Shown here: one piece after another, positions 20,850 through 58,200 of the stretch
Numbering within the stretch: position 1 is the first letter of the stretch
Layout: the number at the start of each line of letters is the position of its first letter
Origin: Sistotremastrum niveocremeum HHB9708
Taxonomy: Eukaryota; Basidiomycota; Agaricomycetes; Sistotremastrales; Sistotremastraceae
NCBI GenBank assembly: GCA_001630475.1
Contig: KV419402.1
Location: 909,491 to 973,490, forward strand
Reading direction: 5' to 3'
Length of the DNA stretch: 64,000 nt
Translations under genes and position numbers: made by a program
The notes under the pieces: generated by a model
Seen by the model: only the letters and a program-made list of their open reading frames with translations
The model's database searches: none
What the model was told of the DNA's origin: nothing

Positions 20850-23552
20850 TTACTGAGAATCCTTGTCGTTTTTCTCGGATTCTAATTTGGCAGCCACTTC
20901 AGGATCCATGACGTCAATACCCATCTCTTCAGCTGTGTGGATGTCAGTTGGAGACGACACCGTCTTAGGAGCAGTGAACATACCTGCGATCTGCTTAGTG
21001 GGCCCAGTGAACCACTTTCGAGCAGAAATCTAGGGAGAGCAGTTTTAGTGTCGCGATTCACAAGACTGATCAGCAGAATACGCACAGCCCAGAACCCTAA
21101 ACTATATGTCATGACAATTCCAAGGGCAACCTGGGTTACCGTGAGCAAGAAGTCACAAGTTGTTCAGTTTACCGTAAGCACATACCACTGTATAGTTGAA
21201 AGTTTGAGAATTAACAGGATTCTCTTCGGGAAGGATGAAAACGATAGATATGAAACAAATCCAAACAACAGCAGTGATGGAAACAGGGAGGGAAAAGATC
21301 CCAAGATCGAAGGGTCCTTTATTGAACCTCGCTCTTCCGATGAGGCGGAGGAAGATGGGAATGCCGTAAGAGATGTAAAGACCCATGGTAGCAATCGATG
21401 TAGCAGCCGAGAATGCAACGGCACTTCCCAAGGAAGGCAATCCGAGGATGAAACTCAAGGTAGCAGCCAACCAAACTGGATTATGAAACGGTGAGCAGCT
21501 GGGCGAATGGGAAGGCGGAATGGCTAACCTGTTCGCACCGGGGATTTTCTCTTTGAGTCAACTTTCTTCCAGAACCCTGAACCAGGAATCCCGCCATCAC
21601 GTGCCTGAAACCAGCTTAGATGCGTGAGAATGGATTGCCTTCCGAACGTACGAAAGACCACATCATGCGAGAGTTGGAAGTGATGGAAAACGTGCCACAG
21701 AAGTACATGCAAACGATAATCTGAACGCAGTGAGGATATTATAAAAGTGACAGACAATGACAGAATGCCCACAATGGTCAACAGAACAAGTGCCCCTTTG
21801 TGTCCAACGGTATCCAGGAAGATTTGCGCAACAGGCTCACCGGTTGCAGTCCCGATTGTAGCGTCGTAGTCTTGGATTGAAAACAGGAGGGCCAAAAGTA
21901 AAAACCAACCAAGAACCGCGGAGACGGAGATTCTGTGCGAGAGAGGTTAACCGTAAGTCAACGTACGGCCAATGTCACTCACGCCATAACGATACCAATA
22001 GCGGCAGACTTGGCTAATCAAGGTTGATTATGGTGCGAAGATGCAAGGAGAGTGGATACGTACCAGCGTTATGAGTTTCCTCACTCAGCTGAGCTTAGAG
22101 TTAATAATGATAAATATCGGAGAGCGTAAACCTCGCACATGAGCACTGGCGTCGAATCCTATTCGGACTGAGCTTAAGAAGTAACTTGGTTTAATAGCAC
22201 GTACCTGTCAACGTGTACTGGTGGTCTTTGTTAGGGATTTGCGGTGATGAACAGCGGCAAGATCTCCACTCACCTGGGACAGGAGAATTCCGATAATACA
22301 GACGTAGGCAGGACTGGCTCTCTCGCTCCAACCAGGTCCGTCCACCCCAGTGCCGTCCACAAATTTGGAGAATACATCGTGGCGAGACTGATGTGTCGGA
22401 GCAGCAGCGAGCACGGCAATGGCTATCGCGGTGGTCCCAATAGCATGCCACCAAATAGAAATGTTATTGAGATGCTTGAGCAAGCCCACTCCGAACGTGT
22501 TGATTAAAGCTTGGGAAATCAATACCCCCGCGTAGATGCCAATGATAGCTCGGGGCGTCGGCGTCCAGTCGGAACCCACAGCCGCGGCGGTTGCGATGAA
22601 AGTGGCACACGCGAAGCTAGATCCAATTATAAAATCTGCCGTTGTTCTGACAAAGTAGAGCGCTTACGATATACCAGTGGTGACTGCGACTTGCTGGAAT
22701 ATCATAAGTCAGGACACTGGTGTAGGAAAGAAACGAGTTCTCAACACACTCCGAGAAGATTGAACCTGGGACTTATGAGAAGGATATTCGGCATGAATAG
22801 AGAAGACATACCATCCGGTGAACCAAGAATTGAACGGCGCCCACTCCGGTGTCGAAACTTTATGTGCCCACCAATAAGGACCTATAAGGTTCGTGATTTA
22901 TATAGGCGATATGTGATATCCAGAAGCACAATACCTCCACCTATAAATATCGATTCGTCAGATATGACGATTGAGAGAAACAACGGAACGATCTCGTACT
23001 GGTCGGAATTGAAGAGCATAACTCTGAAATCTTGTTGAGCACTGGGGCACACCAACCAAATGGCATTGAATACACGCACCTGCCATGGCAAGCCCAACGA
23101 TCATGGTGAAGAACGCTAACATTCTCAGTTAGCTGCGCGGCAGTACGCCATACACTCGCAACTCACAGACAACCACCCAGCCCCATACCATCGCGGCAGG
23201 CCCTCCAGTATTCTAGGTAAGCAGTTACAGCGACCGTCGGGATAAGTATATGTGGCTCGTACCAAGCCGTACAAGAACAACGACGAGATCCCAGTAATCA
23301 CTACACGCCAAAAGCCTTAGTTGACACACAGAGCCTGAAATTCCGCTACTGCTCACCACTGATGATAGAAAAGCTCACACCGAAGTTCTATGTTTTCCTC
23401 AGCCACGCAGCCTTTCGTCGGGTTCAATAGCCTAACTGCAGACGAACCTGAACGATTGAGAAGTGTCGGCGAAGTTCCTGCTTGTAACCCAATCTTGCGA
23501 GCTCATCCTCATCGGCGTCGTGAAGCACTGGGACTACAGACTGGGCAGACAT
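20850..23552 (-). CDS. Amino-acid / GABA permease (APC superfamily)
   Basis: This gene is cut into about 15 exons, many very short. It encodes a plasma-membrane or vacuolar amino-acid transporter of the fungal UGA4/BAT type with about 12 membrane helices. The cytosolic N-terminus reads DADEDELARLGYKQEL, the usual motif of this family, and ends RHFSIVQ. The characteristic region EICSAQPTSGGPYWWAHKV precedes FNSWFTGWY. Next comes GFDASAHVSEET, the conserved segment between helices 5 and 6, and then FARDGGIPGS. Several hydrophobic helices lie in the 21153-21470 and 22208-22579 exons. The C-terminal tail is acidic (EEMGIDVMDPEVAAKLESEK). The start chosen gives the conserved N-terminus. Substrate (GABA, choline, or other amino acids) cannot be decided from sequence. 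Confidence 0.9.
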
Positions 23553-44600: not shown

Positions 44601-47600
44601 GCGGAAGTGAACTCAACGAATCCGAAGAAAGCGACAACGCCTTCGTCGTCGATGAAGGTGGTTTACACACACTTCCCAAAACCTCGAATATAGTCTCCCA
44701 CCCAACTTGAAGCGTATGAACACTCGACTGAAGAATCTGCAAAAGCGTCTCCAACCCCATTTTCTGAATCTCCAACACCACTCCTCCCCCTCCCCCTCCC
44801 CCTCCTCCACTATTATGGGTATCACGAATAGACGAAATCTGCTGCGCCAAAACCTGAAACACTCTCCCCTGCACATCCCTCCCCACCCCTCCCGCCGCAC
44901 CACCACTACTCGCACTAGCACCCAAATTCCTAGGAACGACAACGAGAATATCATCCAGTGCGCGAGAAGCTTGAATCCTCAGATTCGGAGGAACGTAAGG
45001 AGCGCTGAGGACGGAGAGGAAGTGGGATGTTATGCTGTTCCATGCGATGGAGGGCGGGCGGTAGATGAGGCGGGGGATGTTGAGGAGGGATATGGTTGAG
45101 AGGGTTGTTAGGCCGAAGTCGCCGGAACGCTATCATCACGATGTCAGGTTTGGTAGCTATAAGAAAATGAAGAGAGACCTACGAGTGTTCGAGGAAGATG
45201 AATCCCACTCGCTCGCCTCCGATGACTTTTCTCACTCCCAGCCCTCGGACTCAACATCGGCGATCCCTCCTTCTCTTTCAAGCTCCCATCCTTCCCTCCA
45301 TCCCCATCCTTTTCTTCCTCCACAGACCCCGACTCAATAATGATAGAGGGTTGTGGTGGTGGCATCGGAACCGAACTCTGCATCCCAATCATCTCCAAAC
45401 TAAGCCTACAACAACTCTCCACAAAAGCTCTAAAAGCCTCATCGTCCAGATTCTTCGTAGACTCTATCAATCGACGGATTTGATCCAGGAGGGAGGTGGG
45501 ATCTGTGTCTTGTAGGATTGGATGGGTCTCCTCTGCCCCGCCGGGTCCTCCTGAGCCTGGGGTTCCCTGTCCTGGGCTTTGTGTCGAGCTCGAAGTGGGG
45601 AGAGTCGAGCTGACAGATCGAGTGCCTCCACTCCCCCCGCCGGCAGTGGAGGGGATAGAAGCGTGTCTCTTCCCCGCAGGATTGGAGGCAGAGGACTTCA
45701 AAGAAAGCACATAACTCGCATTCTGCACAATCTCCAAAACCCCAAACCACGCCTCTCCAAGACTCCCTCCCAAAAAAACAGCACATGAAATAAGCACCTT
45801 CAAACACGCCATATTCCTCTGCGACAATCCCGGACCCCCTCCCCCCCCTCCTGCGCCGGAGTTGTTGGAGCCCCCAGAGCCAGTGACGAATCCGAGGCCG
45901 AGGCCGTCCAACCCAGTTCGCGGGGTAGCAGGTTCTTGAGAGGAATATGGGGAGGAATAAGAATCGAGCGCTCCGACGACGCGTCCAGGGACACCTCCCT
46001 TCCCCAACACACCCAAAAATGCATCTCTAGCCACATCCAACCCCCCACCCAACGCTCCACTAACCATAATCAAATTCTGGAACGCGCTAAGAGTGTCGCC
46101 GAATAAAGGCGTGGAGAGGGATGTAGAGATGTAGAATGAGAGAGAGGCGAGGAGGGGAGGCCAGCCTTGCGAGAGCATTGCGTGGATCGTGAGGAGGGAT
46201 GTTGTTTGGGGAGATGGGGGGAGTTTGGATAGGTCTAGAGCTGGAGGGGCTCGGAGGGGGCCTGGGGAGGCGGAGAAGGGCCCCGGCGAAGACGGGGGGA
46301 GGGAAGACTGGGGGCCTTGGGGGCCTTGGGAAAGGGTTGGGTTGGAGGACGAGGGTCGGGTGCGGGAGAGAGTATTATAAACCGGCAACACATACCCCGC
46401 GAATCCATCCGAGAGGAGACATAAACACTGTAATCCCAATAAATAAATGTATGTTTCTGGAATAGGCGGAGCGTCTGATTTATCTAGTTGGTCGATACTA
46501 CCAAATCACACCAGTCAGTACCAACTTAGATTTCGGAGGAAGTCTCCCTCCCTACGGTCGGGGTCGGCGACGTACCATTGAAGTTTCATACTACTCCCCG
46601 CACTCAATCCAACCTCTTCCCCTCCCCCCATTCCCATGCCCGGAATACCAACCATCCCCCCCGCAGCGCTCGCTGCACTAGCGACAATTCTAGATCCTGC
46701 AATCGCCACGCCCGCTACGTCAATTCCGTACCCTCCTCCCCCGGGATTCAAATCGTTTGGGTGGGAGTTGTGGGAGGTGTGAGGAGGGTGAGGGTGGAGG
46801 AATGATGCAGGGACTATACCCTGCATCTGGCTTGATGTACCCAGGAGAGAAGGTTTTTCAGTTGAGAGACGGTTAAGAGCTGAGAGGAGGGATGTAAATA
46901 TTCCTTCGTGCGACTGCGACTGCGATCCTGGTGAAGTTTCTGAAGAGGAAGAAGACTGGGATTTTGGGGCGTCGTAGCGCGTGTAGATTTTGCGCATTAA
47001 TTCTGCGTCGGAACATAGACTATATCCTCGTCAGTACCAGTGACCAAACCTGAGCAAGGGGGACATACCCTCTCAAAATCTCAGTAGATATAACCCTCAC
47101 CCACAAAGGCCTCCCCTCCCCCCCACCCTCTCCTCTCCCATCCCCTCCTCCTCCACCCGTCGTCGAGCCCGGCGCAATAGTCCGAATAATCAACCCCAAA
47201 AAAACTTCCACCTCATTCTGAAATTCATCCGAGAACTGTTTTATTAAAAGGAAGACGACTCGTGTGGCGCGGAGGGTTAAGGGGAAGAGGGGTTTGGAGT
47301 GAAGGGTTTGGAGGAGGAATGGACAGAGGTGGTGGGATGTTAGGAGGAGTTGTTCGGGGTGCTACCGTCCATGTTAGCAAAGAAAAGGGCCTCCCTACGG
47401 TCGGGGGACGTACCTTGCGCATAACCTGATGATAATTCGTCAAAATACTCTCCACAAGCTCCAGCGCAAAAGTCTTCGGTATCCCATCCAACTTCAATAA
47501 TCGCGGTTTCTCAGAATTAGCCATAAGACATAAATCTTCAAATACGTGATATGCGTCTTGGGCTGCTTGAGGGAGGTGGATTGATGAGCCGTCTGGGAGT

Positions 47601-48302
47601 GTGATGGGGGATGAGAGAGAAGGAGGAGGGGGGGTGAGTTTGTCTTCTGAGAGGACTTGGTCGCCGACTATGAACATTACTAGTTGGCGGAGTGTTGCTG
47701 CTGCTGTGGATGATACGACTGCGATGCGTGATTCTTGGAGCTTGAAACAGACATATAGGGCCTACACACCGTCAATAATTGAATGAAAGGAGAAGGAGAA
47801 ACGCACCTCGCCGAGTAATTCACCATGGATCATTCGAAAGTTCGTTACAAGCCCCAGTATAGTCTGCAGGACCCTCAACTGAATATCCACCCCCTGATTC
47901 ATACACTCAATCATAGCCTCCACAATAACACTCGCAGCGCTCTGCGGAAGGACTCTCAACGTGATGAGTCTCTGAACGCTCGAAAGCGCTATAGCGACGA
48001 TTTTGGCATTTTTGGTGGAGAGGGATATGAAGAGCGGTTTGAGGATTTCGGATGAGTGGGGAGAGGTGAGGAGTGTGGATTGGGATGCGTCGGGGGTGGA
48101 ACGGATGATGGAGAGGGACTTTTCTGCGGCCTGAGGAGTGTCAGCGAGTCTTAGTTGGTGAGAGAGGGGGAGACGTACATCGCGGATTTCTGGGTGTTTG
48201 CGACGAGATTCGCTGGAGAGAGACTGTGCGAGTTAGAGAGAGAAGTACTAGTAACTAGCAACTTACCTGTAGTTCTGTGACGAGAAATGCGAGCGAACCC
48301 AT
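41676..48302 (-). CDS. MON2: MON2 homologue, Golgi/endosome trafficking protein
   Basis: A 6.6 kb gene with many introns encodes a large HEAT/armadillo protein related to the non-catalytic parts of the Sec7/BIG Arf exchange factors. In yeast, Mon2 with Dop1 works at the trans-Golgi network and endosomes. The start (48302) gives MGSLAFLVTELQ, joined to exons reading AAEKSLSIIRS, LKPLFISLSTKNAKIVAIAL and RVLPQSAASVIVEAM. These are the family N-terminus (DCB region). The next conserved block is DAYHVFEDLCLMANSEKP followed by LELVESILTNYHQVM, the HUS-like region. The later HEAT part includes ALTAAASLLWTVSDAI and AEVRVGAIQTLFRSL. It ends at 41676 with RDLVFKCLREIGKEMGLIA. Insertions include a nine-Gly run near 44780 and Ser/Pro-rich loops (45600-45900). 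Confidence 0.88.
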
Positions 48303-49662: not shown

Positions 49663-50313
49663 CGCTCTCACGAATCACGAATCATCCTCCATCCCCCATC
49701 CGACAAGACAAGACAGTACTTATCTTCAACTTCTCCCCGTCAATCCGTCATGAACCATAAAAATAAAAATGCACATGCAGATCTCTATACGGCATGACGA
49801 AAGGACGCACCTTCTCTTTGATTTCCGTCTCGATATCATCGTGGTATCGTGGCGTGCTGTACTGAGGAGAACTGTCGTCGGGATTCTCGGGGTCCTAGGT
49901 CTTCGATTCGAATTATAACAAAGGAGAGAGGGGAGGGAACATTCTGTCGTTCTCCCATGATCGGAGTAGGCCTGGCTGAGGCTTTTCGAACCGATCATGC
50001 AATGGACTACGGTGTTTCTTCGTCTCGGACTTTGAACAATTCAAGTCTTCAGATCTTGCGTTTTATTGGTAGTATCAGACGATGCAGTATAAGCCGCGCA
50101 GAACATGATAATATAAAAGACACAATACAAAGAAAGATACATCGCGAGAGAGATACATGACGAAATAACGCGAGAGACAAGATACAAAAAAAGATACATG
50201 GCACGATATAAACGAACACAAGAGATAGATAGACGCATAACGATAAAAGAAATAAATCAAGCAAAAATAAACCCGAATCCAAAGAGCCCTGCAAAAAGAG
50301 AAATAAGCCATAC

Positions 50314-52261
50314 TCACCTTCGTTCGACCCGAGGACCAATCCCCGGAATCCGAATCTTCTTCCCAAACACCCTAAACGACAATCGTCGAGGTCTTCGAGT
50401 GACGACCTCCACCGGCGCAGGCGCAAGCGCCTGGACGACCGGACGCCGTCTTCTCTCTGCACCCCTCGAATGTCGAATAGGATAGTCGGGTTCGTCGCTA
50501 TAGACGAATGTGGGGTCCGCCCTATGTCTTCGAACTTGCATCTGAGGCTGGCCTTGGAGACGAATATCGACCGCCGTGGCCGTTGAGGCTTGAGACGGCG
50601 ACCGCATACGTACACCGTGGTCGGGAACATACTAAAACATTATTAGCCGGGCAAAGGGATAGAATTAGAGGGAGACTTACTGCAGTTGAAGTGGGGGACG
50701 GCTGGGGACTCGGAACGTCGACGGCGCCTTCCAATCCGGGGGGCTAGAGGAACGTATCAGCGTCGCATTCAAAATTTAATGACGGCAAACATACGAAAAG
50801 TGGAGTATCCAGGGCTGCAATAGCTTCTTGAGGGGACTGTAATATATGATTCGAGTCAGTATCAGATAATGAACAAAAGAAAGAAAAACTTACCTCAGTC
50901 AAAGAATGAGTCTCTGGGCCCGGGCCCTCGGGGAAGAAAGCCCTTTCTTCAGTGGCGGAAGGCTAGGATATAATTGATCAGTAAATTGAAGACCTCAAAG
51001 GCCAATGACGTACCTGAATCGGAGAAACAGCCGCTGTCCCCTGTGCCACGGTTACGGATTCGTGTGTGCCGGTGGGCTAAAACGTCGCTCAGTATGGCAA
51101 ATATATAAAGATAAGAATTAGCTTACCGTTAGCAGAGCCAACGCCGCGGGCTCCATGTTCGCTGGGACAGAAACGTCTTCGTTGCTTTCTGGCTAGAGTA
51201 TATGTCAGAATAAGAAATTGATGTAATCAATGAACCGGCTTACTGTAATCGAAGAAAACACCACGGTTTCCTCAGGGAGTGTGACGCACTCGTTTGCGTC
51301 CTGCGGCTAATATGAGTTCAGTCTCAGAAATAAACAACAAAGAGAAAAGGCTTACCGAGATCGAAGAAATCGCCGCTGAAACGATAGGCGTTGGTCCCGA
51401 GCAAACATATTCCGAGAGATCGTGGTCTCCGTCGTAACGGAGAACTAAGGGGAGACGATACATCAGCATGAAGATCACCCGCTCACCTTGACGAATGCGT
51501 TCTGCACAGGAAATCTTCGAAGAGAAAGTTAGATGGCATAGATATTGAATTGAGAATGACTTACAGTGGTGGCCTCATCGCCATCAGATTCGGCATCGGT
51601 AGTCGAAGGGACGGGGGAGACAGCTCTCCAGCTCCCGAAATCGGAAAAGCTCGTATCTGAAACCTCGAGAACTTCAGTCGCTTCTTGGGGCGCGCTGGCG
51701 ACCACAGGAGTTGAGAACGAAGAGCAGGCTATCACCTCGCCATACTCTTCAGCCTCCTCCTCCTCGTCATCGTTCACCGCGTCCCGAGGGCGAATGCCCA
51801 CTCGTCGATGGGAACGAACTAATAAGGACTCACCTTGATCCTCTTCTACTGGGAGAAGAGGTTCGTGATCTTCCTGATAGCTCAAAGCTATGGAGTCACC
51901 ATCGTCGGAATCTTCTTCTGCTTCGTGGACTTCTTCGCCTGGAAGAGGCTCCCAGGCATCGACGCTGGAAACGACGGATTCACCGTCGCTCTGTCGTTCA
52001 AGTCAGCGAGGGAAAGAATGAGAAACAAGAGAGACTTACCGAGCGGCAACTGAAGTATTCTTCAGCATCGTCTTCGCCATCGACCACCTCCTCCTCGACC
52101 ACCTCCACCGCCACCGCCACCTCCGCCTCGGGGACTACCACCTCCATCGCCTCAGACACCTCCGCCACCGCGCAAGGCGTCTCCTTCACACTCCTCTCTC
52201 CCTTCCACACAGGAAGCCTCGCCCGTCCTAGTCCAATCGCCTGTAACGCACGCGGAAACAT
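50314..52261 (-). CDS. Unrecognised acidic protein encoded by a mini-exon array
   Basis: Eleven exons fit one continuous frame of 482 residues: 52040-52261, 51565-51990, 51487-51514, 51356-51444, 51244-51306, 51127-51192, 51014-51076, 50894-50962, 50795-50836, 50681-50743, 50314-50631. All introns are 42-57 nt, with GT...AG ends, except the 50 nt intron after exon 2. The N-terminal 216 residues are acidic (VEVVEEEVVDGEDDAEEYF; DDEEEEAEEYGEV). Exons 5-10 are all symmetric phase 0, 42-69 nt, and five of the six begin with Pro; each encodes a variable Thr/Val/Pro/Glu-rich segment (for example THESVTVAQGTAAVSPIQ). The last exon is basic (RGAERRRRPVVQAL, RRPRRLSFRVFGKKIRIPG). No signal peptide, membrane helix or known domain. 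Start could instead be at 52348. Function unknown. Confidence 0.7.
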
Positions 52262-55200
52262 TTCGCAAAAAGCAGTAAAGTCGCAATAAGCAGAGCTTAG
52301 CAGACAAGAACTCTCAAGAAGATGGGAGTTCAGTGAAGAGAGAGTCACATCATATCGTTGCGCAGAGCTGAGTTTGAGTCTGAGTTAGCTGAGCTGACTG
52401 CTGTCGAGACGAGACGAATCGAATGTCAAAACGCGTCGAAAGTGAATAAGCGCCGGTGTTGAAGGGCTGTCGATGTCGGACCCACATCGGCTATCGGAAG
52501 ATCACTAAGGGGCCAATGCTTCCGAGCTTCTGCCGAGCCGGGCATCCGGTTGCCGGTTGCCACCTCCGAAATGGCAAACCTGCGGAAGATAAGCTTTCAA
52601 AGCACAGGAAAGCCTGGTATTGAAACATGTCAGCTTAAAAGATTATCATTGTCATGTTTTGAGCTCGCCGGATTCCTCTCCTCATTTCTGTGACATGTTC
52701 GAGCAGTGTTCGAGCTCGACATCTGTCCCCCGGCCAGCGGAGTTCGAATATCAACTTCTCTGGGCTCTATTTTTACTTCCGAAGCACCTGGGCCCAGGCA
52801 CCCCTTTCAAGTTCTCACGACTAGACGCTCATGTTTGGGCGCCTTTTTCCTTATCGCACCATTCTTTTGCACGATAGCATTCATCCCGTCCTCACCATAA
52901 ACAAGATCGTTGCCAATGCAAACATGAAAAATGACTGATGCGTCAAGTGAAACCTTTCCCCCTTGTGCTTTTGTAGATTGTGAACCCGAAATACCAGACG
53001 CGTATGTCCAGTTTTAACTTAATAGTTTTGCATTATGATTTCTACCCCAGTGTGATTGTATCGTTGTGATGATTCATGATTCAGTATCCTTTTTCCATTC
53101 GCTTCATTTCACAGTATCGTATTATCGGTTCGACGTACATCTTCAATCGCGATTCAGTCCGAGAAACGCACGGTGAGGTCGGACCATTGTCGGTTCTTTC
53201 GTTGATCAGTTCTTCGGCCTTCCTCCAGACTGAAAGGACTTTATTAGCAGGTAAGAAAAGCTGAGCTATCCTGTAGCAAGACTTTCGCATCTGGGGACCC
53301 AAGCCGCATTTCACTGCGACTATGATACTGTCACGATCGACGCTATTCGACTCACAACGTCCTGTCCTGCTGAGCTACGGAGGCTTTGACCTCATGCACG
53401 TCCAAAGGTAAGAAAAGATATCTCTTCCTCGTCTCACGATGACCTGAAGACGTCAAGATAAGGAGGCTTTCACAGTTGGAAATTCTCCGGAGACGAGGGA
53501 TGTCTGCATAACACAACATTGACGGCGTCCTTTGGAGCTAAATCATGCACCAGGATACGATACCCCTCCGAATGGCTCGGCACCAAGGCGGTTTCGAATG
53601 TGTCCATGACTTCCTGTCAGTGTCTCCAATAAACGTCCGTCCCTCTTCCATTCGTCTCATCGGCATCAGAGCTTTCAGAAGCTGATACAGGATATTCGCA
53701 TATGATGGTCTCTAGAATTCGTCCCCGAGCATGAACTCCTTCATGGATTGGTGCGTCTCTCGACTGGATTATCGACCCTCTATGCATGGACACTGATGAC
53801 ACCGATGATGGAACGGAATGAATTTGGTTACTGGACCTGCCGAATCGCAGGCGGCGCATCCAAGGGTCGCATTCTCTTTCTCAAGGTATGATCTGTCAGA
53901 GACACTGGCTGTTCGCCTCACGTGGACATCATCCGTTCTGCTCGGCATTCATCCTGCTTCTCGTCTTGGTTTATCGACCTAGAAGCAAACATTCTTGACG
54001 CTAAACATTGACAGGACCGACTGACTTGCTCCTATATATACTTCTCATTGGCGACCACTACAAGATGTTGGACTACGGGGATGTACAACTTCTCACGACG
54101 GACTAGGCTAACTCGGCGTTCTTCCTACTTCTAGCCTTGAATCGAGCCATCGTTATAAGACAAAGTACCTCGACGTTTCGCCTCTCTACTCGCTTTGCCA
54201 TTTGTCTCCAGCACATGGTCATTGTATCGCGAACTAAGGGCTTGATGCTAGTATCCCCGGATAAATTCGGAATTCCAAACAGAAACAGTCTCGCAGGCAG
54301 AACATATTCTCCGACGATACCGAAACGCAATCTAATCTAATAAAGCACTTCTCTTCCCTCCTAAATCCGCAGTGGCGACTTCTTTTTGTGCGAGCCCTGA
54401 TCGATATCGAATGATCGACGTTGTTCCAAGCCACGGATCCGTGCAATATAGGAGACGTGAGAAGCCCAAAGGGCCCCGGAGCCTTGAGCTGCGATTTGAG
54501 TGGACGTCGAGGAAATGAGAAGAGGAAACGAATAGCAACGTTGGAAGCCGGGGGCGGGATGAGGTCGGATCCGTAGTTGATGCACTCCAACCAACGCAAT
54601 GTTGATAAGTGAGCCGAGTAGCGCAGCGCTAGTAGAATCCATCAAGAGAAATGGAAATGCGATAAATACTTATTCACCGTAGCGAAGCGGAGGTGAATTT
54701 AAGTGTCCGGTTTTTCTCTTACGTCATCACGGGGTTAGCGGCGGAAGGGGAGTGCTGGGGGGCTCTCGGATTGAAAGTTTTGTATCGGGGACTTCGAAGC
54801 TAATTGCTCCTCTGTTTCAACGTCATTCGCCGTAAAAATTGCACATTTGTGTCATATATGATCTAACCGTCTAGTCTATCGCTTTTCAGCTGCCCATCCG
54901 CAAAATTGAGCGAGCTGGATCAACGCTGCACCGACTTTTAGGCGCTTATTATCTGCGACGCGTGGCCGGAGTTATCGGCGATGTCATCCCTTTTACTGAA
55001 AGCATAAATTCGATTTAAATGCAAGTCTAGGTGTGAATTCTCGCCGTGGTTAAGACACTTAAATTCACCTCCCGGGCCCTTCGCAAGGTGGGTTAACGCA
55101 CCGCGTGCTACGATGTTAGTGGATGATGGGCGGAGTTTGAAGCAGTGACAGGCCTCGTGCTACTTGAATCGCAGACACTGACGGCCAGAGAGAGGCAAGG

Positions 55201-55292
55201 CAGGACCAAGCCTGCAGGTGAGTGGCAATATTAAGTCTTGTGTTTATGCTATAAGCGCTAATAGCTAATAGAGACGAAATCGAACCCGGAAT
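52262..55292. other. 3 kb interval without supported gene, containing a MITE-like element
   Basis: Divergent region between the mini-exon gene (-) and the Zn2Cys6 gene (+). Open frames of 60-120 codons (for example 54234-54599 on the minus strand) have no coding support. It contains the inverted-repeat element 54673-55092 described separately. Confidence 0.5.
54673..55092. mobile_element. MITE-like non-autonomous element with inverted termini
   Basis: A perfect 19-bp inverted repeat (ggaggtgaatttaagtgtc at 54689-54707, its complement at 55054-55072) is extended outward by a similar segment on both sides (cacc-gtagcgaag on the left; the complement of the right end reads cacc-ttgcgaag). The right arm has a 4-5 bp insertion with a gggcccggg palindrome. 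The trinucleotide TTA flanks both ends (54670-54672 and 55093-55095), which would fit a 3-bp target duplication as in PIF/Harbinger elements. The interior has no open frame. Class assignment is tentative. Confidence 0.5.
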
Positions 55293-58200
55293 ATGGACAT
55301 GGACTTCGCTCAGCAAACCCGGCCTCGTCCAATCGCCGGTCGCTCCTCCACCCTCGACTCGCAACATTCATACCCACGCACGCATCTTCACCGCTCCTTT
55401 ACCACCCAGCAGCAACAACCTCAGCAGATGTTCACGCCCGCGCTGTTCCATGGAGGAGATCCCCACGAACAAACAGGGCAAGGACTCGATTATGAGACGT
55501 TCCTGAATCTGCAGGAGCAGTTTGGTGTCGATTCCCTAAGAAGCAATTTGAATATTGCTGCTGCTCAGACGAGGAGTGAACATCCAAGTCATCCGTATCA
55601 TGAACCGGTCTATGTATTCGATGCAGGCGCATATGGTCAGGCTCAGGCTCAAGCACAGTGGCAAGATCCCCAGACATATGCACCTCAACAACCACAACCA
55701 TCGTATCATGCGCAACAATATCCATCGCCATTCACCAACTCTCAACACTCTGCATCCGTATCTCCTCCCATACACAACACAATGGGAGTGGAATACCAAC
55801 CATCCCCTCTTCCCATACATCCCGCGCTACAGCGTCCCCAACTATCACCAATTGTAACAGGTCCAGGGCCATCTCGTAACCACCTCGCTCCTCAACATGA
55901 AAGTCACCAATCTGACTCCCGTCGACCGTCTCGCAAACGGAAACGTACCCAGGCGCGTCAAAGTCGGAAGAGGAAAGGAGACGACAGTGGGGACGACCGC
56001 GATGGAGATAGTAACGGAAGTGATGCAGATGGGCGGGACGAGGAGGATGATGGGATTGGCAGGGGACCTGATGGACAACCTGTTCGATTGTGAGTTGCCT
56101 TTAATCTATTCTCTTGCTTTCTCGTTTCTTGGCGCCTGGGGGGAAATCGGTTTGGTTGACAGCCGGTTTGGTCGTCGATGCCAGGCCAGCCCATCACATC
56201 CTTGCCTCGTTGTTGAGCCTCATGTTTTGGATTGAATACTGATTGCGTGCGATTGTAGACCCGGGGCCTGCAAGCATTGTAGGAAGCTCAAGGTTCGTCC
56301 GGTCTTTCGTTCTCCGGAGTCAGACCCTGACGTCATGATCATGAATGGATAGATGAAATGCGAATTCGAAGACCCTTATGATGTGGTCTGTAAACGTTGC
56401 AAGACGAGTCGACACGAATGTATTGTGGAGGGTCGGAGACCGAGACCTCCTACAACGTACGTTCTCTTGGTTTGTGTCTTGTATTGTTTGGACTTATAGG
56501 GTATTAGGAAGAGGGAATTTTTGTTGGCTCAGATCCGACACAAGGATGCTATCATCGACTCCCTACTAAAACACGTACGTCTCCGATGCACAGTCGTAGA
56601 CCTGCAAAGACTGAGATCGTATCGTAGATCCACAGCCCCAACGACCACCCCATCCCAGCAGCCCATCTTTCCCTACACCCCTCCGACGATCCCTCAACAT
56701 TCACGAACCACCTCCCTCCTATCCCTCTCCAAGGAGGGACAACGGCCAGCACTGATCAACCCGATGCGGCTGTGCTCGAATGGTTAGAGAAAGCAAGAGA
56801 AGCAGAAGGGAAGTATATCAGTGACATGACCACTTCTGAAGAGGAAAGTGAGAGTTTCGATGAGAGCGACGAGGAGGTGGGAATTCGAGGGAGGTTGTGG
56901 AATAGAAAGGGACATGGAATTGGGGACTACGAGAACTTCCATAATGTTCCCGGAGAACCTTCGCCTATTGGTGAGTCTTCCTCTTCCGTATGGGGAAAAG
57001 ATGCTGACGGTGGTGAATAGGCCTGTTAGCACACCTTTCGATTGCAAGGACAAGATCCAAATCGCGCTCGCGGACTCGAACAACGAGATCTTCGTCCGTC
57101 TCTGCCGATCCTTCACGTACCAGCCACACAAATACACATGGAAGAACAGATACGCCGTCCACATCTGCACTTCACGCCGATGGAAGTGACTCAGGAGGCC
57201 CGGCTGATGGTAATGAAGATGATAACGTTGGGCTGGCGAATGATACTTATTTCTTCCCTGGTACGTCCCTTTCTCCGATTGAATGATAGGATGGGACTAA
57301 TGGGCTTTTGGGCAGGCCCTCAGAGTCAACTTAATCTGAGAGCTGCGTTGTTGGGCCAACGGCCGCCTGAGATTCTTGTGCATGGGATTGTCACGCCGGC
57401 GGATGTGGATCAATTATTCAAAATGTGCGTTACTTTTTCATCTTTTCTTCTTGGCGATGTAGTGTCCCTACTTCGACTTTCTTCGTTTCGCTGCTCGTTT
57501 GTTGGCTCGTCGACCGCATCCATTTACACCGTCTTTGCTCAACTCAAACTAACTATACGACTCATAGATTTTACGAAAAGATCAATGTACGCCCTGGTAT
57601 CTTTCACTATTTGAAGACGCGAGAAGCTTACTCCTTCACAGCCGTTCGTCTCTCTTCTAGATCCAGTCCTCCATACACCCGCAACAACATTCAATCGCTG
57701 TCCCTTCCTTTTCACGGTCATCTGTGCCGTCTCCTCACGCTTCTACACCTCCGCTCCTTCCTCCCCTCCCGCATCTAATCCTCCACTCCCGGCCACCTCT
57801 TCCTCCAACACCAACGTCACCGCTCGACAGACCGCTCGAAACAGAGCTGCAGCACAGATCAAACCCGAGCCCGCTCCTGTAGATCAATTCTCTGATAAAT
57901 CAAAGATATATCCCATCGCGATGTATTTCGCGAAGAGTGCTGCATCGAAGAATTTGATTGAGGGGTTGAAGAGTGTAGAGTTGAGTCAGGCGTATTTGTT
58001 GCTCAGTATCTATAGTATGCCTGCGAGGAGATGGGAGGAGGACCGGAGTTGGTTGTATCTTGGTATGTCTCTTCTTTTCCTTGGCCTTCCCTTCGTTCAC
58101 TTTCACTCCTTGGACTCTTACTTTTCGTCGCGTGCATTCTCGTGAATATCGCTAACCCTGGAATAGGCATTGCCATTCGAATAGCGACAGATCTGAACCT

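Follow-up and report, generated by a model that had tools for sequence, protein, structure and literature searches.

How does a fungal gene come to carry a run of small exons that all begin and end in the same phase, and what does such a run do to the protein? The 64-kb stretch of DNA analyzed here (hereafter the window) raises this question on its minus strand, where a gene read from 52261 to 50314 contains six consecutive mini-exons of 42-69 nt. Tandem duplication of an exon-intron unit is the probable origin of this array, whose product would be a constitutively spliced, probably disordered spacer between two conserved motifs. The corrected gene model has 10 exons, all 10 open in a single frame, and predicts 496 residues; its nine introns are all phase 0. 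The mini-exons (M1-M6) are exons 5-10 of an initial annotation, whose numbering, given in brackets below, is kept where units are compared. The features, all on the minus strand, are as follows.

52302-52349, minus strand: leader element, 48 nt, ending 40 nt before the ATG
52040-52261, minus strand: exon 1, 222 nt, with the start codon; its start MFPRALQAI resembles MSIPAAQAI and MSSTAAQAI of the paralogs
51565-51990, minus strand: exon 2, 426 nt, encoding an acidic segment in a frame that the paralogs support
51356-51514, minus strand: exon 3, 159 nt, with the conserved core LPLVLRYDGDHDLS; putative AAG acceptor
51307-51355, minus strand: intron preceding the array, 49 nt
51244-51306, minus strand: mini-exon M1 (exon 5), 63 nt
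51193-51243, minus strand: intron after M1, 51 nt
51127-51192, minus strand: mini-exon M2 (exon 6), 66 nt
51077-51126, minus strand: intron after M2, 50 nt
51014-51076, minus strand: mini-exon M3 (exon 7), 63 nt
50963-51013, minus strand: intron after M3, 51 nt
50894-50962, minus strand: mini-exon M4 (exon 8), 69 nt
50837-50893, minus strand: intron after M4, 57 nt, resembling 51355-51307 and open in frame if retained
50795-50836, minus strand: mini-exon M5 (exon 9), 42 nt
50744-50794, minus strand: intron after M5, 51 nt
50681-50743, minus strand: mini-exon M6 (exon 10), 63 nt
50632-50680, minus strand: intron following the array, 49 nt
50314-50631, minus strand: last exon, 318 nt including the stop, with the second conserved motif DPTFVYSDEPDY

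Is the array more than a chance arrangement of splice-like signals? The lengths first reported for the mini-exons (63, 66, 63, 69, 42, and 63 nt, phase 0 at both ends in all six) are exact, and the seven introns in and around them measure 49-57 nt as described (51, 50, 51, 57, and 51 nt between mini-exons, 49 nt on each flank), with splice sites and branch-like motifs of ordinary form. GC content is 0.50-0.68 in the mini-exons, against 0.28-0.41 in these introns. Five of the six mini-exons open with the CCN codon said to begin most of them, and the fifth begins with TCC. The period of about 113-120 bp claimed for the array holds for three of its five start-to-start intervals and fails for two (114, 116, 114, 126, and 93, with 112 to the last exon). 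A chain finder, which joined introns of the form GT(AAG/ACG/ATG/GAG)...YAG, 44-62 nt long and containing a branch-point-like motif, through open phase-0 exons of 30-100 nt, recovered the array as the longest chain in the window, with precisely its six mini-exons, and gave no chain link on the plus strand. Of 100 Markov sequences of 64 kb generated with matching local composition, 85 contained no link at all and the other 15 reached a chain of 1. Elsewhere in this genome, three further stretches (L015, L017, and L027) reach at most 1 link, so the array is unusual within the approximately 85 kb scanned. The mini-exon array is real and beyond chance.

The gene belongs to a small family, and its relatives bear on both its frame and its margins. 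Paralog A (C23:424442-426559, plus strand) and paralog B (C23:443504-441382, minus strand) lie approximately 15 kb apart in opposite orientation and are 85% alike over 2.9 kb, with dS 0.299, dN 0.075 and dN/dS 0.25; judged by these rates, the family codes for a protein under purifying selection. Twelve of the 14 codons of the core LPLVLRYDGDHDLS differ between the window gene and paralog A and no residue does, so that the frame of the core is under selection. The second motif, in the last exon, reads DSTFIYNDVPTDY or DPTFVYNDVPTDY in the paralogs and DPTFVYSDEPDY in the window, and is conserved in the same frame; a conserved motif thus stands on either side of the array, both in one frame. The paralogs also correct the model just upstream of 51444, where the stretch first singled out ends and a 42-nt intron (51486-51445) had been proposed. 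Since paralogs A and B read straight through this segment (ERAMYILKHNLPLVLRYDGDHDLSWYL in paralog A vs. ERVIFMLMYRLPLVLRYDGDHDLSEYV in the window), it is coding, and exon 3 merges the former exon 3, the supposed intron and the former exon 4.

Neither paralog carries the array: at its place each has one intron, of 54 nt in A and 53 nt in B. From the core-exon intron to the second motif there are 47 codons in each paralog, against 160 in the window gene, of which 122 are mini-exons. That the segment could change length without a frameshift, as the initial annotation proposed, follows directly from the symmetric exons, and the paralogs without an array show that its length has changed within the family. 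The phase-0 symmetry itself is a family trait and not a property of the array alone, because the modeled introns of the paralogs are all phase 0 as well (6 of 6 in A, 6 of 6 in B); 17 other predicted introns of the window divide into 6 of phase 0, 6 of phase 1 and 5 of phase 2. With symmetric phase, gain of a unit would be harmless.

Several observations on the family stand beside these. The N-terminal exons of the paralogs are strongly hydrophobic and have no counterpart in the window gene. In both, a stretch of 45 nt running from GTAGGC to CAG (C23:424937-424981 in A, C23:443006-442962 in B) is open in frame and contains CTAAC in A and CTGAT in B; it is possibly an intron that is either kept or removed. 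No Pfam family was found for the window protein or for paralog A (E up to 1), no PDB match for the window protein and no Rfam match at 50200-52600, and a search of IMG/VR with a 64-residue stretch of paralog A gave 16 pattern matches, none of them a relative. A weak genome match at C21:258782 (E 0.27) was rejected as a family member, its three forward frames looking like an unrelated gene; further weak matches fall on C11 (E 0.43) and C14 (E 3.15).

Did the units arise by copying? The initial annotation explained the array by a single exon-intron unit that was duplicated repeatedly and then diverged, a reading borne out strongly for the exons at the DNA level and only moderately for the introns. 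The tests against shuffles took the end of the former exon 4 as an additional, seventh unit; in them the exons resembled one another at the DNA level more than codon-shuffled versions did (P 0.001, z 3.8, 1000 shuffles), and more than versions with codons shuffled in blocks (P 0.0035). Measured against 25 control exon ends, the final 42 nt of each exon give a mean score of 14.2 vs. -8.6 and -7.2 (label permutation P 4e-5), and P is 0.0036 when up to 63 nt are aligned locally; with the controls limited to the 13 that have AT-rich introns, the 42-nt comparison is weaker, at P 0.0013. Units 5 and 7 share 79 of 103 aligned bases with 22 gap columns, and the resemblance is closest among exons 4-8, with exons 9 and 10 showing the least. 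Alignment of the units against shuffled sequence favors duplication in exon DNA and not in the mini-exon peptides, which across all pairs are not significantly more similar than shuffles (P 0.11); the peptide pair of exons 5 and 7 alone stands out (P 0.004, uncorrected).

The introns after exons 4 and 8 had been singled out as related, and they do agree at 41 of 48 aligned bases (10 gap columns). Array introns score 56.2 among themselves vs. 33.9 and 32.0 for controls (global P 0.0007, local P 0.0044), and P is 0.007 against 13 AT-rich controls. The paralogs complicate this signal. Intron 5 of paralog A, which lies elsewhere than at the place of the array, scores a mean of 59.4 with the array introns, against 56.2 among the array introns, and some of the resemblance between introns may hence reflect a common intron grammar; paralog introns 5 and 6 both score close to the array introns, and the paralog intron at the place of the array scores 52.1, not above 56.2.

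The controls for these comparisons, mostly predicted introns rather than RNA-proven ones, comprise 6 introns of paralog A, 2 of the window gene and 17 further predicted introns of the window. These 17 were drawn from 28 rows (30 less those of the array itself and the first intron of the window gene) by keeping listed rows with scores of at least 2.6, omitting a 69-nt row at 22273 and adding 47806-47762, which lies between two DCB matches. At this score the finder returns 18 rows in the window vs. 1 in the reversed sequence. Of two earlier finders, the first gave 13 introns and a looser one gave 17 rows vs. 13 in reversed sequence, where overlaps were left uncollapsed. Because the looser finder is near chance outside the array, a set of 18 controls that included 10 of its introns was weak, and was replaced by the 25.

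It could be argued that there was no duplication, and that six unrelated small exons in a fast-evolving disordered region look alike through composition and splice-site grammar. The peptide result, the paralog introns 5 and 6 with scores nearly matching those of the array, and the lower GC of the array introns (0.35 vs. 0.46 in controls) are what this account would predict. It fits poorly with the exon DNA, which exceeds both shuffles and other exon ends, with the bases shared by units 5 and 7 and with the even spacing of the units, and we consider it unlikely. Intron insertion offers a different route to the same layout, in which multiplying introner-like elements inserted themselves at equivalent sites of an exon that contained an internal coding repeat. 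Such elements occur in fungi, as the available text of one source describes (PMC4457414), and the array introns do resemble one another. However, 35-nt pieces of two of the seven array introns match the 34.7-Mb genome nowhere else when up to 3 mismatches are allowed, and the paralogs contain no long uncut exon, having 47 codons before the second motif where the window gene has 160; this route is very unlikely. Two more specific origins were considered and rejected. Paralog exon 7 is not convincing as the seed of the array, as the start of the paralogs' last exon matches no mini-exon significantly (P at least 0.185), and derivation of the introns from duplicated exon sequence is unconvincing at an exon-intron similarity of 1835 vs. 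1763 (sd 50) on shuffles. Sequence comparison thus leaves exon duplication well supported, and joint duplication of the introns with the exons fairly supported.

Under tandem unit duplication, a phase-0 exon of approximately 63 nt with an intron of approximately 50 nt would have been duplicated repeatedly within this small fungal gene family, at the site where the paralogs carry a single intron. We infer that the direction was gain of the array in the window gene and not loss in the paralogs. The units would have diverged afterward, one exon shrinking to 42 nt. All six mini-exons would most likely be included constitutively, giving a spacer of 122 residues whose composition (19 Pro, 15 Ala, 14 Glu, 14 Thr, and 12 Ser) suggests that it is probably disordered. 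Recombination between units is the presumed mechanism by which their number changes, and could add or remove approximately 21 residues without a frameshift. Length would then change over evolutionary time by recombination, with inclusion held constant.

The same symmetry could instead serve an isoform generator, in which mini-exons are skipped in varying combinations to yield proteins with different spacer lengths. Skipping of any subset of the six keeps the frame, and the intron at 50893-50837 stays open in frame when retained. There is a fungal precedent in the NACHT-ANK (nank) genes of Tuber melanosporum, whose many codon-sized mini-exons are alternatively spliced according to excerpts of two accounts (PMC9815663 and PMC4986451, citing Iotti et al. 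2012). Retention of any of the other six array introns would bring a stop or a frameshift, leaving only the 57-nt one open, and mini-exon skipping would need introns of approximately 160 nt. Short introns with ordinary signals suit intron definition, and all seven introns here, at 49-57 nt, are of that kind. Fungi skip exons comparatively seldom, and in all but one of the species studied intron retention is more frequent than skipping, as reported in the accessible part of PMC6142364. Constitutive inclusion is therefore what would be expected from introns whose size and signals match those that fungi splice out one at a time, from low fungal skipping and from retention that is mostly disruptive, and an isoform generator seems improbable. 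A further proposal joins both ideas in an exon-intron minisatellite, a family member with phase 0 only whose units of approximately 21 codons vary in number between strains and are also skipped in combination. We regard it as quite unlikely; if true, its novelty would be the coupling of splicing to unit copy number, mini-exon splicing being already precedented in Tuber.

Could the window copy be a pseudogene? The weak spot of the model is the junction of exons 2 and 3. Exon 3 most plausibly starts at 51514 after an AAG acceptor, the sole acceptor found that joins exon 2 to the conserved frame, placed 13 nt after CTAAC. AAG acceptors are rare in general, and reliance on AAG leaves room for a damaged gene. 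A decaying gene, in which exon structure no longer matters, would account for this acceptor with its out-of-frame CAG following nearby, and for the absence of the hydrophobic N-terminal part found in the paralogs. It is at odds with ten exons in one open frame, with a core in which 12 of 14 codons have changed and the residues have not, and with a leader that retains 45 of 48 bases, and it is highly improbable.

This leader is a conserved element in its own right. It lies at 52302-52349 of the window (minus strand), at 2861-2908 of L015 and at 5040-5087 of L027 (minus strand), ending 34-40 nt before the start codon. The window copy is identical to each paralog at 45 of 48 bases, and neighboring 12-nt blocks match paralog A at just 1-6 of 12. 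A 33-nt part of it (at most 3 mismatches) occurs only before these three genes and in the duplicate contig C76. Folding gave no strong structure (z -1.6 and -0.6). Positions 1-6000 of C76 are 100% identical to window 51690-57689, with the contig end inside exon 2 of the window gene; by its sequence this match is a duplicate or overlap in the assembly. The comparison covered the first 6,000 bases of C76 (60,784 bases). The adjoining gene (window 47225-48232, minus strand) encodes DCB and HUS domains of the Mon2/Sec7/BIG1 kind. DUF6535 is typical of mushroom-forming fungi, and the genome (34.7 Mb, 111 contigs) contains at least 151 matches to it, where one gene may match repeatedly; this count suggests a large family expansion.

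How does tandem unit duplication at this locus compare with systems already described? In animal tandem exon duplication, an exon and its flanking intron are copied head to tail in symmetric phase. The array shares the head-to-tail exon and intron and the symmetric phase, and differs in being fungal, with introns of approximately 50 nt and strongly diverged copies. NACHT-ANK genes are likewise a fungal family in which tiny symmetric exons follow one another in runs; as far as the excerpts describe them, these are exons of 3 bp by the dozen in NLR genes of an ascomycete, whereas the array consists of six exons of 42-69 nt in an unrelated protein. Schistosome micro-exon genes also string together short symmetric exons whose omission leaves the frame intact (PMC8293314); their exons, in the part of that account available, are mainly of at most 36 bp, make up most of the gene and are differentially spliced, while the array occupies one segment. 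At 42-69 nt the mini-exons are larger than micro-exons as sized in either system (at most 36 bp in schistosomes, codon-sized in the truffle). The bicycle genes of aphids, a family recognized by structure, have many small internal exons of one phase (PMC9168663), a likeness that rests on gene structure and not on sequence. As partially described there, they have approximately 17 exons on average, internal ones almost all of phase 2, and encode putative gall effectors, in contrast to six mini-exons in a gene that is phase 0 throughout. Another comparison is with the P450 genes of the basidiomycete Phanerochaete chrysosporium, in which microexons of 2-10 residues, for which alternative splicing was proposed, lie among introns of 45-55 bp (PMC1184071). 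Small exons among such introns are common to both; the P450 microexons are scattered and, in the text available, not described as tandem copies, unlike the tandem units of 42-69 nt here. Among the matches listed from the fungal literature, no tandemly duplicated exon-intron array is reported, which is weak evidence of absence.

What the array means for the family depends on its unit number. If that number is fixed and splicing is constitutive, this would be an ordinary, well-preserved exon duplication. If it varies between strains, exons and introns together would act as a coding minisatellite in a fungus, and the locus would provide a natural test of intron-defined splicing across runs of 42-69 nt exons. 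Such variation would also show the length of a spacer changing within a gene family while its two flanking motifs stay fixed.
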